Positions 6,858 to 51,972 of a stretch of 64,000 nt of DNA are shown piece by piece; within the stretch, counting starts at the first letter, position 1; every line of letters starts with the position of its first letter. The position numbers and the translations under genes are program-made. The notes beneath the pieces are model-generated. The model had not been told where the DNA came from. It was given only the letters and a program-made list of their open reading frames with translations, and searched no databases. Source of the DNA: Demequina litoralis (GTDB taxonomy: Bacteria; Actinomycetota; Actinomycetes; Actinomycetales; Demequinaceae); NCBI RefSeq assembly GCF_030418455.1, contig NZ_JAUHPW010000004.1, positions 62,001 through 126,000 on the forward strand. The letters are read 5' to 3'.

Positions 6858-6964
6858 GCGCCCATCCACGCAGGTGAGTCACTCTCCCACCGGGGCTCGG
6901 GCGTGTCGCGGTACGGAGGCGCCTCAGCGCGGCTGTGGCGCGTGGTCGGTGTGGAGGGGTAATC
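6858..6964. repeat. Family A intergenic repeat, copy A1
   Basis: Begins CATCCACGC and has a second half-site CACTCTCCCAC about 24 nt later; ends with GTGTGGAGGGGT in inverted orientation. It is the most diverged full copy. It starts 13 nt after the hpt stop codon. Confidence 0.65.
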
Positions 6965-7073: not shown

Positions 7074-7901
7074 ATGGATCCCGTCACTGCGCTGAACTCG
7101 CTCGGCCGCGCCGCGCGGCTGGGAGAGCTGAAGGAAGCAGGCGTCGCGAGCCGGGCGCTCGGACGAGCGGTGGCCACCCAGCGCATCGTCCGCCCTCTGT
7201 ACGGATGCTACGCGCTGCCCAACGCCACGCGCGCCGACATCCTGCGCGCCGCCTACAGGGCCGAGCTGTGCTGCACCAGCCTGTGCGAGGCGCTCAAGCT
7301 GCCGGTGATCGAGCGTGACGGCGCGATCCACCTGGTGGTCCCGCGCGACCGTGGGCGGCGGGTCGACGACCGCCGCCCGCGGAAAGGCGTGGTGCTGCAC
7401 CGCCACGGCGAGGAGGTCGTGTCCGATGAGGCGCGCGTCGCGGTCGCGCTCGACATGCTCGGGGTCTGTGCGGACCGGATGCAGCAGCTCGTGGCGATCG
7501 ACGCGGCGCTCAACCAGCGGCTCATGACCATCGGTGATCTGGCGGCGTTCGAGATCACGGACGAGGCGCGCCTGCAGTGGCTCCGCGACCACGCCGACCC
7601 CGCGGCCGATTCGTTGCTCGAGACGATCACCCGCGTCGGCCTGGTCGACGAGGGATGGCGCGTCCGGTCGCAGGTGCCCATCGCCGATGCGGGCCGCGTC
7701 GACCTCCTCGTCGAGGACAAGGTCGTGGTCCAGACCGACGGTCGCGAGCATCATGACAACCCGGTCGCGTTCGTCGAGGACCGCCGCAGGGATCGCGCAT
7801 GCGTCGCGGCCGGGTACCGGGTGCTGCGCTTCACCTACGACGACGTGATGAGCGCGATGCCGCGCGTGATCCGCGACGTACGCGCCGCGCTCGCCTATTG
7901 A
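7074..7901 (+). CDS. DUF559 (VSR-like nuclease fold) protein
   Basis: 275 aa. The C-terminal part (about 195-275) has the DUF559 pattern of a very-short-patch-repair-like endonuclease fold: [21 protein letters not shown], then [17 protein letters not shown]. The N-terminal half resembles the winged-helix region often fused to it and related to AbiEi-type antitoxins. These proteins are numerous in actinobacteria and their role is unproven; a transcription-factor-like or nuclease function are both possible. ATG 7074 fits the start of similar proteins; there is no strong ribosome-binding site. One decamer lies at 7182. Confidence 0.75.
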
Positions 7902-8000
7902 CCGCTCCTGCAAGTGGTGCGGTGGCTGGCCCACGCGGCCGTGCCCGTGGAGCCCAGATCTGGACCGTTGGGGCGCGACTCGCCGACGACACGCCCGAAT

Positions 8001-8042
8001 GCTGGTGGGGGAGTGCCTCACCTGCGTGGATAGGTAACCACG
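8001..8042. repeat. Family A repeat, single-arm copy A2
   Basis: Only one end of the family A element is present: GGGGGAGTGCC followed by GCGTGGATAGGT. Its reverse complement closely matches the left end of copy A4. No opposite arm was found in 7902-8000, so it may be a remnant. Confidence 0.6.
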
Positions 8043-17817: not shown

Positions 17818-17927
17818 TTCACCTCTCCACGCCACCGGGGCACTCCTCCACCAGAAAGCGCCTCGAACGCACGGAAAAGGCGCCGAATCGGCGCGTTCGG
17901 TGCCTCGTCGCGTGGAGGGGTGCATGG
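17818..17927. repeat. Family A intergenic repeat, copy A3
   Basis: Left end TTCACCTCTCCACGC and GGCACTCCTCCAC, 24 nt apart; right end GCGTGGAGGGGTGCA in inverted orientation. The interior holds a smaller inverted pair, CGAACGCAC and GCGCGTTCG. It lies between panD and nadB. Confidence 0.75.
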
Positions 17928-23339: not shown

Positions 23340-23459
23340 AGCACCTATCCACGCACGTGAGGCACTGCTCCACGCGGAGGGCGTGCGACGAGGCCGCTCA
23401 GCCCTGATCTCGGTGCCTTCGGGGCCGATTCGGCGGAGGGTGCGTGGAGAGGTGCTCGG
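23340..23459. repeat. Family A intergenic repeat, copy A4
   Basis: Left end CACCTATCCACGC then GGCACTGCTCCACGC; right end GCGTGGAGAGGTGCTC inverted. It starts 6 nt after the nadC stop and ends 40 nt before lysS, so it sits directly upstream of the lysS promoter. Confidence 0.75.
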
Positions 23460-42905: not shown

Positions 42906-43054
42906 GGCCAATGTTTCCCTTCACCGGCAGGTACGTGCCGGACGATCCGTTGTGAAGAGTGCCGCTGTGGTGTCCACTTTGACACTGCCGGGTTCTGTCC
43001 GGCCCGCCCATACTCTCACACCCCGACCGGGACCTGGGACCCCCCCGACCGCCC

Positions 43055-43110
43055 ATGACAAAGGTGACGCATGTGACCGGCGGAGCCGTCACATGCGTCA
43101 CCTTTGTCAT
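43055..43110. repeat. Family B inverted repeat, copy B1 (perfect 23-bp arms)
   Basis: The left arm (43055-43077) begins ATGACAAAGGTGACGC and ends ATGTGAC; the right arm (43088-43110) is its exact complement. The 10-nt loop is CGGCGGAGCC-like. It lies 26 nt before the Ser/Thr kinase gene and just upstream of its -10 box (43125), so it may affect transcription there. Confidence 0.85.
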
Positions 43111-43136
43111 TGCGAATCGCCCGGTAGGTTGAGGAC

Positions 43137-47127: not shown

Positions 47128-47155
47128 GCGGCCACCCTAGCGAGGGGACGATGCG
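47116..47155. repeat. Inverted decamer pair over the ung start
   Basis: CGCATCGTCC (47116) and GGACGATGCG (47146) face each other across 20 nt that contain the ung -10 box. One copy is the first codons of ung. Folding would hide the start region. Confidence 0.7.
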
Positions 47156-50137: not shown

Positions 50138-50168
50138 GATTCCCAATGACAAGGGTGAAGGATGTGAC
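50138..50168 (+). repeat. Family B repeat, single-arm copy B2
   Basis: GATTCCCAATGACAAGGGTG followed by AAGGATGTGAC, one arm only. It matches the right arm of B3 in inverse orientation and the left arm of B1. It lies in the groL-adh gap (50050-50245), which also holds a decamer at 50229. Confidence 0.75.
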
Positions 50169-50245: not shown

Positions 50246-51193
50246 CTACAGCAGCGCCACGAGCCTGCCCCGTACCTCGCCCCGCTTGAGCCGCTCGATG
50301 CCCTCGGGGATCTCGTCGAAGCCGATGGTGGCGACCTGCGGCTCGACCTCGCCCGAGGCGAACAGCGCGTAGACCTCGGCGACGTCGTCGAGGGTGCCGC
50401 CATTCGAGCCGAGGATCCGGGCCTGCTTGAGAATCACGTCGCGCGTGTTGAGCGTCGCCTCGAGCCGGCCCATGCCCACCACCACGATGGTGCCGTCGCG
50501 ACGGATCGCGTCGACCGCGCCCGCGGTCGTGGTGCCGAAGCCGGCATAGTCGACCACGAGGTCGAAGTCGCCGCCGGCGAGCTCCGCGATGTCCTTGACC
50601 ACGCGGGACGCGCCGATCTCCTGCGCGAGCGGCCAGACCTCCTCGTTGATCTCGACCGCCGTGACGTCGGCGCCCTTGACCACCGCGACGCGCGCGCCGA
50701 TCTGCCCGAGGCCGCCGAGGCCGATCACGGCCACCTTGTCGCCCGCCTTCACCTCGCCGATCGTCGCGATCGCGTGGTACGAGGTCATGCCGGCGTCGGT
50801 GCCCGCGGCGGCGAGGTCGAAGGGCAGGCCCTCGGGCATGCGCACGAGGTCGATCGCGGGTACGCGGTGCAGCGGGGCGAAGCCGCCGTCGCGGCCGTAG
50901 CCGGGAGCGACGCCCGAGCCCCCGGTGGGGCATACGCCCACGCGGTCGCCGACCGCGTAGCCCTCGACACCGTCGCCGATGGCGGTGACGACGCCGGCGA
51001 TCTCGTGGCCCATCGTCACGGGGAGGACCGGGAGGAGGGCGAGCCAGCCCTCGTCCTCGAGCACGCCCACGTCGGAGTGGCACAGTCCGGCCGCCTTGAC
51101 CTCGAGCACGACCTCGCCGGGCCCGGGCGTGGGGTCGGGGAACTCGTTGAGCGCGAGCGGCTGGTGGGTGCCGGTGAACTGCCATGCCTTCAC
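50246..51193 (-). CDS. Zinc-dependent alcohol dehydrogenase-like oxidoreductase lacking the structural-zinc lobe
   Basis: 315 aa. A medium-chain dehydrogenase with the catalytic zinc ligands in AAGLCHSD and GHEIAG and the NAD(P) fold AVIGLGGLGQIGA. The four-cysteine structural zinc loop usual near residue 95-115 is missing: the region reads VGVCPTGGSGVAPGYGRDGGF, with one cysteine. This explains the short length. Substrate unknown. GTG 51193 is supported by GAGGAG 7 nt upstream. A palindromic operator at 51271 suggests specific repression. Confidence 0.85.
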   Translation of the reverse strand: MKAWQFTGTHQPLALNEFPDPTPGPGEVVLEVKAAGLCHSDVGVLEDEGWLALLPVLPVTMGHEIAGVVTAIGDGVEGYAVGDRVGVCPTGGSGVAPGYGRDGGFAPLHRVPAIDLVRMPEGLPFDLAAAGTDAGMTSYHAIATIGEVKAGDKVAVIGLGGLGQIGARVAVVKGADVTAVEINEEVWPLAQEIGASRVVKDIAELAGGDFDLVVDYAGFGTTTAGAVDAIRRDGTIVVVGMGRLEATLNTRDVILKQARILGSNGGTLDDVAEVYALFASGEVEPQVATIGFDEIPEGIERLKRGEVRGRLVALL

Positions 51194-51270
51194 GGCGTCT
51201 CCTCTCGTCGGGTGCGCGAGGCGGAGCACGGCCATCGTGCGCCTCGTCGCGTCACGTGTCCCTCCAGACT

Positions 51271-51286
51271 ATTGACACCTGTCAAT
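51271..51286. promoter_or_regulatory. Palindromic operator upstream of the alcohol dehydrogenase gene
   Basis: ATTGACA-CC-TGTCAAT, perfect 7-bp arms, directly next to a minus-strand -10 box TAGTCT (51266-51271). The shape suits a TetR-, MarR- or GntR-type repressor; no such regulator gene is adjacent. Confidence 0.65.
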
Positions 51287-51322
51287 TAGCGCCAGGGGTG
51301 AGATACGTGGATGCACGGCGCT

Positions 51323-51404
51323 GATTCCCCATGACACAGGTGAAGGGTGTGACCGGCGCGGGCGGCGGCTCGAGTCCCACCTGTCACCCTTGTCATTGGG
51401 AATC
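51323..51404. repeat. Family B inverted repeat, copy B3
   Basis: The left arm starts GATTCCCCATGACACAGGTG; the right arm ends CTTGTCATTGGGAATC. The arms are imperfect complements around a GC-rich centre. The right arm runs into the DUF4031 gene and supplies its stop codon. Confidence 0.8.
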
Positions 51405-51668
51405 CGCGCGGCGCTGTGCCGCCGTCACCCGCAGGCCCGAGGCGCGGAGGCGGCGGATCAGCTCGCGCGTCGACACCTCGACGGCGCCGAGCGCCACGAG
51501 CGCCTCGCGCCGCTCCTCCGGGTAGTCGTAGTGGTCGCGGTCGAAGGCCCGCGGCGGGATCCCGGCACGGTCGGCGAACGTGTGCAGCTCCGCGAGCGAC
51601 TCGTCCGAGACGAGGTGACCCCAGATGCGCCCGTGGTTGGGCCACAGCGGAGGGTCGATGAGGATCAC
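51393..51668 (-). CDS. DUF4031 protein
   Basis: 91 aa. Matches DUF4031: VILIDPPLWPNHGRIWGHLVSDESLAELHTFADRAGIPPRAFDRDHYD, then EVSTRELIRRLRASGLR. Small cytoplasmic protein of unknown function common in actinobacteria. GTG 51668 is chosen because TACGCT (51675-51680) ends 6 nt upstream. The last codons and the TGA stop are formed by the right arm of repeat B3 (GAT TCC CAA TGA), so the repeat may have reshaped the C-terminus. Confidence 0.85.
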   Translation of the reverse strand: MILIDPPLWPNHGRIWGHLVSDESLAELHTFADRAGIPPRAFDRDHYDYPEERREALVALGAVEVSTRELIRRLRASGLRVTAAQRRADSQ

Positions 51669-51684
51669 CCCCCGAGCGTAGGCC

Positions 51685-51972
51685 TCACCGCGCGAACAGC
51701 CGCGACGCGGTCGCCTCCGCCTCCTCGTAGGACCGCGCCGCGTGCGCGAGCGCCGTGGTGATCGCGTCGAGCGCGGTCTCCACATGGGTCTGGGCGCCGC
51801 GCCACTGCTCGCGCACGTCCGCGAATGCCGCGGCGGCGGAGCCCTGCCACGTGGAGTCGAGGCCCGCCAGCTGCCCCATGAGCGCCGCGACCTCGGCTCG
51901 GATCGCGTCCGCCGAGCGGGCGGCGCGGGCGGAGGCGGCCGCGACCTCGGCCGCGTCGACGTGATACTGCAT
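51685..51972 (-). CDS. WXG100-family (ESAT-6-like) protein
   Basis: 95 aa, two helices joined by the WXG turn (Trp42-Gln43-Gly44 in STWQGSA). Such proteins are dimeric substrates of type VII secretion. No second WXG gene, EccC ATPase or LXG toxin is next to it, so it would rely on a secretion system elsewhere. GAGGAGG lies 6 nt before ATG 51972. Confidence 0.88.
   Translation of the reverse strand: MQYHVDAAEVAAASARAARSADAIRAEVAALMGQLAGLDSTWQGSAAAAFADVREQWRGAQTHVETALDAITTALAHAARSYEEAEATASRLFAR

Follow-up and report, generated by a model that had tools for sequence, protein, structure and literature searches.

Among repeat populations maintained by a domesticated enzyme, the REPIN-RAYT system is the best-known example. 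According to the available part of one study of that system, repeat numbers are higher in the presence of the enzyme, whose gene is vertically inherited and occurs in one copy (PMC8049555). The repeat family described here from Demequina (family B) resembles REPIN-RAYT in its many short palindromes per genome, its vertically inherited candidate enzyme gene and its location at gene 3' ends. It differs from that system in lacking a match to a Y1 transposase in 44 genomes, the candidate enzyme being an AbiEi-like plus Vsr/DUF559 protein; in its arms of about 31 nt, which form one long stem with a 9-bp TGAC period, as opposed to the tagged 20-40 bp hairpins of REPINs (family B shows neither a GTAG nor a CGTC tag beside such a hairpin); and in the placing of its candidate enzyme gene between two repeats.

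CGTC-tagged REPs, as the available part of PMC3733652 describes them, likewise form head-to-head dimers at gene 3' ends and have no dedicated transposase, and in the closest relative of our strain (G022) CGTC or GTC often precedes the family B arm; in contrast, their stems are 8-9 bp with loops of 4-5 nt, and the five phyla given in that part of the paper do not include Actinobacteria. Correia/NEMIS, RUP, ERIC and RPE elements (PMC2229807, in the part available) are also similar in being about 100-200 bp long, mostly with inverted ends and a stable hairpin, and several of them give codons to genes, but most carry target duplications or TA ends, whereas family B lacks target duplications of at least 4 bp. 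On the side of the enzyme, I-Bth0305I (PDB 3r3p) appears from a weak model match to have a similar catalytic fold, which would suit copying by break repair, while the nuclease considered here is a free-standing gene with an AbiEi-like head, known from sequence and model. MTES_1575 is a Vsr-fold REase according to the available part of PMC3710099, a paper on HEPN fusions. Literature searches, which fell short of most subscription papers, returned nothing relevant on palindromic repeats of Demequina or on DUF559 with inverted repeats, nor, among the matches listed, on AbiEi/DUF559 with palindromes, DUF559/Vsr/homing or REPIN in actinobacteria.

The window is the whole analysed stretch of 64,000 nucleotides from Demequina litoralis, whose 3.02-Mb genome is called G000; other G numbers denote compared genomes. 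Its features around the DUF4031 gene, and its further family B element, are:

51393-51662, minus strand: DUF4031 gene, about 89 aa from its likely start (PF13223; 29 relatives compared)
51323-51404, no strand: B1, a complete family B palindrome of 82 bp, with a GC-rich loop between outward arms of about 31 nt each
51393-51404, minus strand: outer 12 bp of B1, the codons GAT TCC CAA TGA, i.e., DSQ and the stop of DUF4031
50246-51235, minus strand: zinc-type alcohol dehydrogenase gene between B2 and B1 (profile; synteny)
50138-50168, plus strand: B2, a single family B arm after groEL (pattern match)
43047-43118, no strand: the window's third family B element, with a -10-like box (judged by eye) just downstream of it

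The DUF4031 reading frame (51393-51785, minus strand, 130 aa) is assigned by profile PF13223 over residues 41-115 (E 2.4e-33; 114.7 bits against a cut-off of 25.6) and ends in ...QRRA-DSQ-stop; its likely start, 51662, was picked by comparison with relatives. The initial annotation, made from the sequence alone, had proposed that a repeat end, GATTCCCAATGA, gives the gene its last codons and stop, and that B2 holds the same string. Both proposals are borne out: DSQ and TGA lie within B1, and exact copies of GATTCCCAATGA occur at 51393-51404 (minus strand) and 50138-50149 (plus strand), the window holding 5 matches with up to two mismatches against 1.27 expected (at least 5 in 1 of 100 shuffles). 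The two copies differ in kind, however, since B1 is two-armed and complete, with its other end at 51323-51334 (a full second arm 70 bp from the first) and a fold into a single long hairpin (-45.7 kcal/mol, plus strand), whereas B2 is one arm only. B2 may be the remnant of an older element, because diverged arms sit at the groEL end in G049 and G024. As DSQ and TGA come from the element and the PF13223 domain ends upstream, only post-domain residues of DUF4031 are altered. A separate palindrome, TTGACACCTGTCAA, lies at 51270-51290 upstream of the dehydrogenase gene; it is repressor-operator-like, and the G022 copy differs by one base.

By protein search, 35 of 39 genomes have DUF4031, G000 being one of them. 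The C-terminal tails of the relatives' proteins differ, and none of the 29 at loci examined (of 34 other genomes with a match) ends in DSQ; the outcome that would have told against an element-derived tail, the same C-terminal residues in relatives without family B, was therefore not seen in these 29 proteins. The DUF4031 of G022 is 92% identical and ends in ...QRRAG-stop. All nine syntenic relatives compared have their own, element-free stop, the sole family B arm within 300 nt of the gene among them being in G049, 119 nt further on. DUF4031 is seen as an element-ended gene in one species only. The spacer from the dehydrogenase start to the DUF4031 end diverges over its whole length between G000 and G022, so filled and unfilled sites are not joined by a clean insertion. 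The annotation had inferred that insertion replaced the original 3' end and had called this direct evidence that the repeat moves or is exchanged: the element does lie where relatives have another tail, but clean insertion finds no support, and 'direct evidence' is too strong, given a spacer that differs throughout and the absence of target duplications of at least 4 bp in 97 elements. The comparison indicates that B1 came to the end of DUF4031 by exchange or gain in the G000 lineage. The alcohol dehydrogenase gene is present at this locus only in G000 and G022 among 10 genomes compared; its capture by B2 plus B1 was considered and is unsupported, G022 carrying the gene without either repeat.

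The 20-nt arm GATTCCCAATGACAAGGGTG, with up to three mismatches, has 62 matches in the G000 genome, and the same pattern read backwards has none, so family B is not a product of chance. Pattern GAYTSCCAATGACANNNGTGA, with up to one mismatch, occurs in 8 of 44 Demequina genomes (control 0), with 79 arms in G000, 70 in G016, 47 in G043, 22 in G022, 5 each in G002, G024 and G049, and 3 in G044; the G000 total amounts to about 40 palindromic intergenic elements. Against 84,980 species, in a set that perhaps lacks the window's own genome, a stricter arm pattern matched D. mangrovi and D. soli only, i.e., nothing outside the genus. A phage reservoir was discarded, the strict pattern being absent from viral_contigs.

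From parts of four genomes, 102 paired elements were extracted and 3 nested duplicates removed, leaving 33 in G000, 23 in G022, 24 in G016 and 19 in G043, of 57-125 bp. Each consists of two conserved outward arms and a fast-changing loop. The arm consensus is GAYTSCCAATGACAnnnGTGA, with TGAC repeated at a 9-bp period; positions 1-2, 4, 6-7, 9-13 and 18-20 are near-invariant (at least 0.93), positions 15-17 vary by species, and the flank next to the arm is C in 81%, with a partial GTC preference that is strongest in G022. Relative to shuffles, 94 of 99 elements fold with z below -2 (mean MFE z -5.9 to -9.8 by genome), and these show the stable hairpin typical of an intrinsic terminator. Within an element, the match between the arms is no better than that of shuffled pairs in G000, G022 and G043 and slightly better in G016 (76 of 2000 shuffles reach it). 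Such a near-random match suggests that the arms are constrained as DNA sequence, and it speaks against hairpin covariation as the constraint in three of the four genomes. Among the 97 elements with both flanks, matches of 2-3 bp in the flanks are not above shuffles. An RNA-family explanation was also dropped, a scan of six loci giving two tRNAs only. At the site of the third window element (43047-43118), G016 has a different family B element, and G022 and G044 have other sequence with a GGGACGATGCG motif. Two local duplications were noted: on G000 contig C1 (L012, 899-1230) a similar tandem duplication of about 175 bp begins with a family B arm, and in G022 (L165, before the element at 2634) several tandem units of about 20 bp hold the element end (GTCGACTCCCCATGCCGCCCC-like).

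Family B prefers gene 3' ends: 46 elements lie in convergent, 34 in tandem and 7 in divergent spacers, against 38, 77 and 44 background spacers (orthologous sites counted once per genome; 10 elements at the edge of a locus and 2 within ORFs excluded). With a coding-frame filter, 196 of 198 element ends in the four genomes could be scored. The stop lies within the element at 22 of them (20 at +9, the TGA of GATTCCCAATGA, one at +23 and one at +32) and straddles its boundary, as T followed by GA, at 11; elsewhere it lies outside, within about 20 bp (64 ends) or farther (39), or is not found within 400 bp (60). The DUF4031 end is counted among these 60 because its short gene failed the coding filter, and is an extra case. 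The frame-0 TGA of the element, or a T plus its first GA, is thus repeatedly the stop of the abutting gene.

Eighteen element-ended genes of G000 were taken for comparison with relatives, five being without relative sequence and one (C19:224179) not comparable. At C19:208449 G000 ends in KG-stop, as opposed to KGWG-stop in three relatives, two others being one residue shorter and ending in W, and at C16:265747 it has RVRA-DCQ where three relatives have RVRVEV-G/S/R. At C16:80739, C7:8071 and C12:251244 the relatives have their own stop, with the arm 9-24 nt past its first base. Tails can also be common to species (DSQ at C17:285871 in G000, G022 and G016; DCQ at C12:234180 in G000 and G016), and a stop derived from an element can thus be old. 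In these cases non-coding repeats have time and again altered how adjacent genes end, both the C-terminal residues and the stop codon.

Across genomes, 63 pairs of elements occupy orthologous sites. Eighteen of these are G000-G022 pairs, which take in 18 of the 23 elements of G022 and have about 92% identity in their flanks; their arm cores score 0.88 against 0.87 for random G000-G022 pairs, and their aligned loops 0.61 against 0.53. Some pairs are plainly homologous (G000 L016 and G043 L220, loop 0.95). Convergent spacers free of family B also diverge (median 0.64 with G022, 4 spacers), so fast loop turnover alone is no proof of overwriting. Presence also differs between species: the element at C19:208449 is absent from G022, G044 and G043, and other family B slots are empty or hold other palindromes elsewhere. 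A reading as recent insertion agrees poorly with the many family B sites that are common to several species with differing sequences, and with a DSQ tail conserved in three species at one gene (L064, L187 and L208); these alignments are better explained by in-place exchange, accompanied by gain and loss, than by recent insertion. In G044, G043 and G049 (L158, L161 and L159), other palindrome-like sequences were seen at some slots orthologous to G000/G022 family B sites, in C16:257500-277400.

The most informative result is the association with a nuclease gene. In G000, two outward family B arms 1.2 kb apart enclose a single gene, whose 286-aa product has an N-terminal AbiEi_4 winged helix (PF13338, above cut-off) and a C-terminal nuclease domain of MTES_1575/DUF559 type (PF18741, just below cut-off). 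The same enclosure is found in G043 (protein 83% identical) and G016 (73%), and in G024 a 58% homolog lies beside family B arms. In long stretches of four genomes (192 genes, the G043 and G016 nuclease loci lying outside them), the G000 nuclease and the dehydrogenase are the only genes with family B within 300 bp on both sides. A genus-wide search identified orthologs in G000, G043, G016, G024, G054, G042 and G008 (46-100% identity); beyond these there are full-length paralogs of at most 43% identity, and some match in each of 44 genomes. All seven orthologs lie at one locus, between a gene that we take from its translation to be aspartate aminotransferase and the side of what is presumably secE. 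Arms are present at every ortholog, of type CCCAATGACA in four species, CCCAAGGTA in G042, CCCACTGGTCGATG in G054 and GACAATCAAGGGTCTC in G008, and in G024 and G042 they are paired into complete palindromes on both sides. The gene is therefore vertically inherited at one locus with repeats at each copy, in kind the pattern of a REPIN-RAYT system, and by bracketing and by the other arm types at orthologs the family B arms appear to be tied to it.

If the arms at the locus belong to a dispersed family, each species should carry its own type elsewhere. In 400 kb each of G042 and G008, nuclease locus excluded, G042 has 7 matches to its own type including 3 head-to-head pairs and G008 has 2 matches and no pair, the family B type and the reversed control giving 0 in both; conversely, 135 kb of G000 contains neither the G042 nor the G008 type, against 23 family B matches. 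The G054-type pattern gave 2, 1 and 2 matches in three foreign DNA sets and was not used as evidence. Arm counts are 79, 70, 47 and 5 in genomes with the B-type nuclease and 22, 5, 5, 3 or 0 in those without the ortholog. The misfits are G022, with 23 paired elements and no ortholog, and G024, with an ortholog and 5 arms by pattern; gene loss in the former and arm drift in the latter are possible reasons.

Among 16 nuclease sequences, invariant columns include E187, T188, D214, D226, G227, H231, D240 and R243, so that the REase active-site residues (E187, D214, D226, H231 and D240) are all retained, as expected of an AbiEi-like plus Vsr/DUF559 protein. A profile search of solved sequences gave one endonuclease-like protein, 3hrl. 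The window itself holds a paralog, with a second repeat family (family A) around it:

7074-7895, plus strand: paralog of the B-bracketed nuclease, with a DUF559 C-terminus and, by weaker profiles and fold, an AbiEi-like N-terminus; family A arms on both sides
6861-6929, plus strand: family A inverted repeat to the left of this nuclease (inverted-repeat search)
7966-8034, minus strand: family A inverted repeat to its right (inverted-repeat search)
23345-23373, plus strand: dispersed family A arm, one of six (others at 17823, 26834, 34834, 38761 and 39981)

In a two-sequence AlphaFold model of this paralog (mean pLDDT 63.6), both terminal domains are predicted with confidence and the middle poorly; its best Foldseek matches, to Vsr, AbiEi and I-Bth0305I, all have E of 0.02 or higher. 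The flanking 69-nt inverted repeats score 30.5. A degenerate family A pattern (CYWTCCACRCNNNNGRGGCACTCCYCCAC), derived from the arms at the nuclease together with previously noted copies, matches the window 8 times, twice at the nuclease, with 0 expected. Strict 22-mers from five paralog arms have at most one dispersed copy each in the DNA scanned.

Inverted repeats scoring at least 15 occur in the 300-bp flanks of 24 of 29 Demequina nuclease loci (one contig-end locus left out); among 111 other genes sized 600-1300 bp the count is 5, which includes two window genes with dispersed repeats on either side. When the two flanks come from different nuclease loci, 61 of 300 pairs reach this score, probably from repeat families common to the loci. 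The G000 ortholog scores below 15, its arms being recognisable by the family B consensus only, and the threshold is attained at one of three further Demequina nuclease loci. For other genera of the order the figure is 9 of 21 nuclease loci, against 2 of 200 mismatched flank pairs; of the 119 genomes of the order that were searched, Demequina included, 72 have a homolog.

Taken as a whole, we favour, as somewhat probable, a REPIN-RAYT-like partnership of family B with the AbiEi-like plus Vsr-type nuclease. The winged helix would bind the arms, the nuclease would cut at them, and repair of the break would copy a palindrome onto an existing one or place it in a fresh spacer. A cycle of cutting and repair copying would leave no target duplication, would remove adjoining bases including stop codons and would replace old sites, and arms and enzyme would co-diverge. 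Such a partnership would work like REPIN-RAYT, with a restriction-fold nuclease in place of the Y1 transposase. Counting against it are the dehydrogenase gene that is also bracketed by family B, the many elements of G022 without an ortholog and the 5 arms of G024 with one, the 2 unpaired matches in G008, the G054-type matches in foreign DNA, the near-random agreement of an element's two arms in three of four genomes, the inverted repeats scored between flanks of different nuclease loci, the threshold being attained at one alone of the three further Demequina loci, the mostly negative strict paralog 22-mers and the lack of any Foldseek match at E 0.001 or better for the window paralog model. 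We give even chances to the broader possibility that AbiEi-like/Vsr-type nucleases are engines of an undescribed class of repeat populations, each nuclease keeping up and exchanging a palindrome family of its own through cutting and repair copying, with co-divergence, several pairs per genome (as A and B would be here) and portable stop codons. If true, a repeat-enzyme partnership evolved more than once, on an unrelated nuclease, the large AbiEi/DUF559 protein family gains a job, and many actinobacterial intergenic palindromes have a possible source.

Several features of family B could also be expected of stationary, selected bidirectional terminators or 3'-end insulators, with arms bound by a host protein, the nuclease an unrelated neighbour, and small deletions having brought the palindrome onto stops. 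The strong hairpins, the favoured convergent gene ends and the many sites common to species agree with this, as do the relatives' arms that begin 9-33 nt past the first base of an independent stop at several genes. A stationary element, however, sits badly with presence that is species-specific at DUF4031, with the absence from three genomes at C19:208449, with only 3 arms in G044 despite about 90% identity in the stretch compared, with the same sites being empty or occupied by other palindromes elsewhere, with some elements lying between divergent genes, and with nuclease orthologs bracketed by different arm types; we regard this explanation as unlikely.

Mobility of a conventional kind, family B being an ordinary MITE left by an insertion sequence whose transposase has since been lost, would account for terminal inverted repeats on dispersed elements of 57-125 bp with a patchy distribution across species, but not for the lack of target duplications of at least 4 bp (0 of 97), for interiors little more alike than control pairs, or for the nuclease being the only gene enclosed in several species (the transposase census covering PF01797 alone), and we hold it to be less likely still. 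A REP/REPIN family run by a RAYT (Y1) transposase has a like layout, with paired inverted ends near gene 3' ends (PMC3733652, part available); PF01797, however, is found in 0 of 44 genus genomes against 5 of 14 control genomes, which goes far to dismiss this enzyme as the driver, and the family B arms, at about 31 nt, are unlike small tagged hairpins, leaving such a family very improbable. Finally, the DUF4031 tail is variable among relatives and could have drifted into a coincidental 12-mer, an explanation whose chances are negligible beside the genome-wide arm matches and the complete second arm at the other end of B1. The partnership with the nuclease is the reading we retain.

Another short repeat was also noted. 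The 10-mer GGACGATGCG, a string not found in the literature searched, occurs both inside and between genes, in places as inverted pairs, and is DNA uptake sequence-like. There are 54 copies in the window against 0.9 expected (e.g., at 47148, 50231, 52918 and 62984) and 1564 in the G000 genome (793 and 771 by strand) against 5 for the string read backwards. Among 59 genomes, 12 Demequina carry 711-1564 copies, the other 25 Demequina 10-235, and 22 outgroups of the order 3-37.
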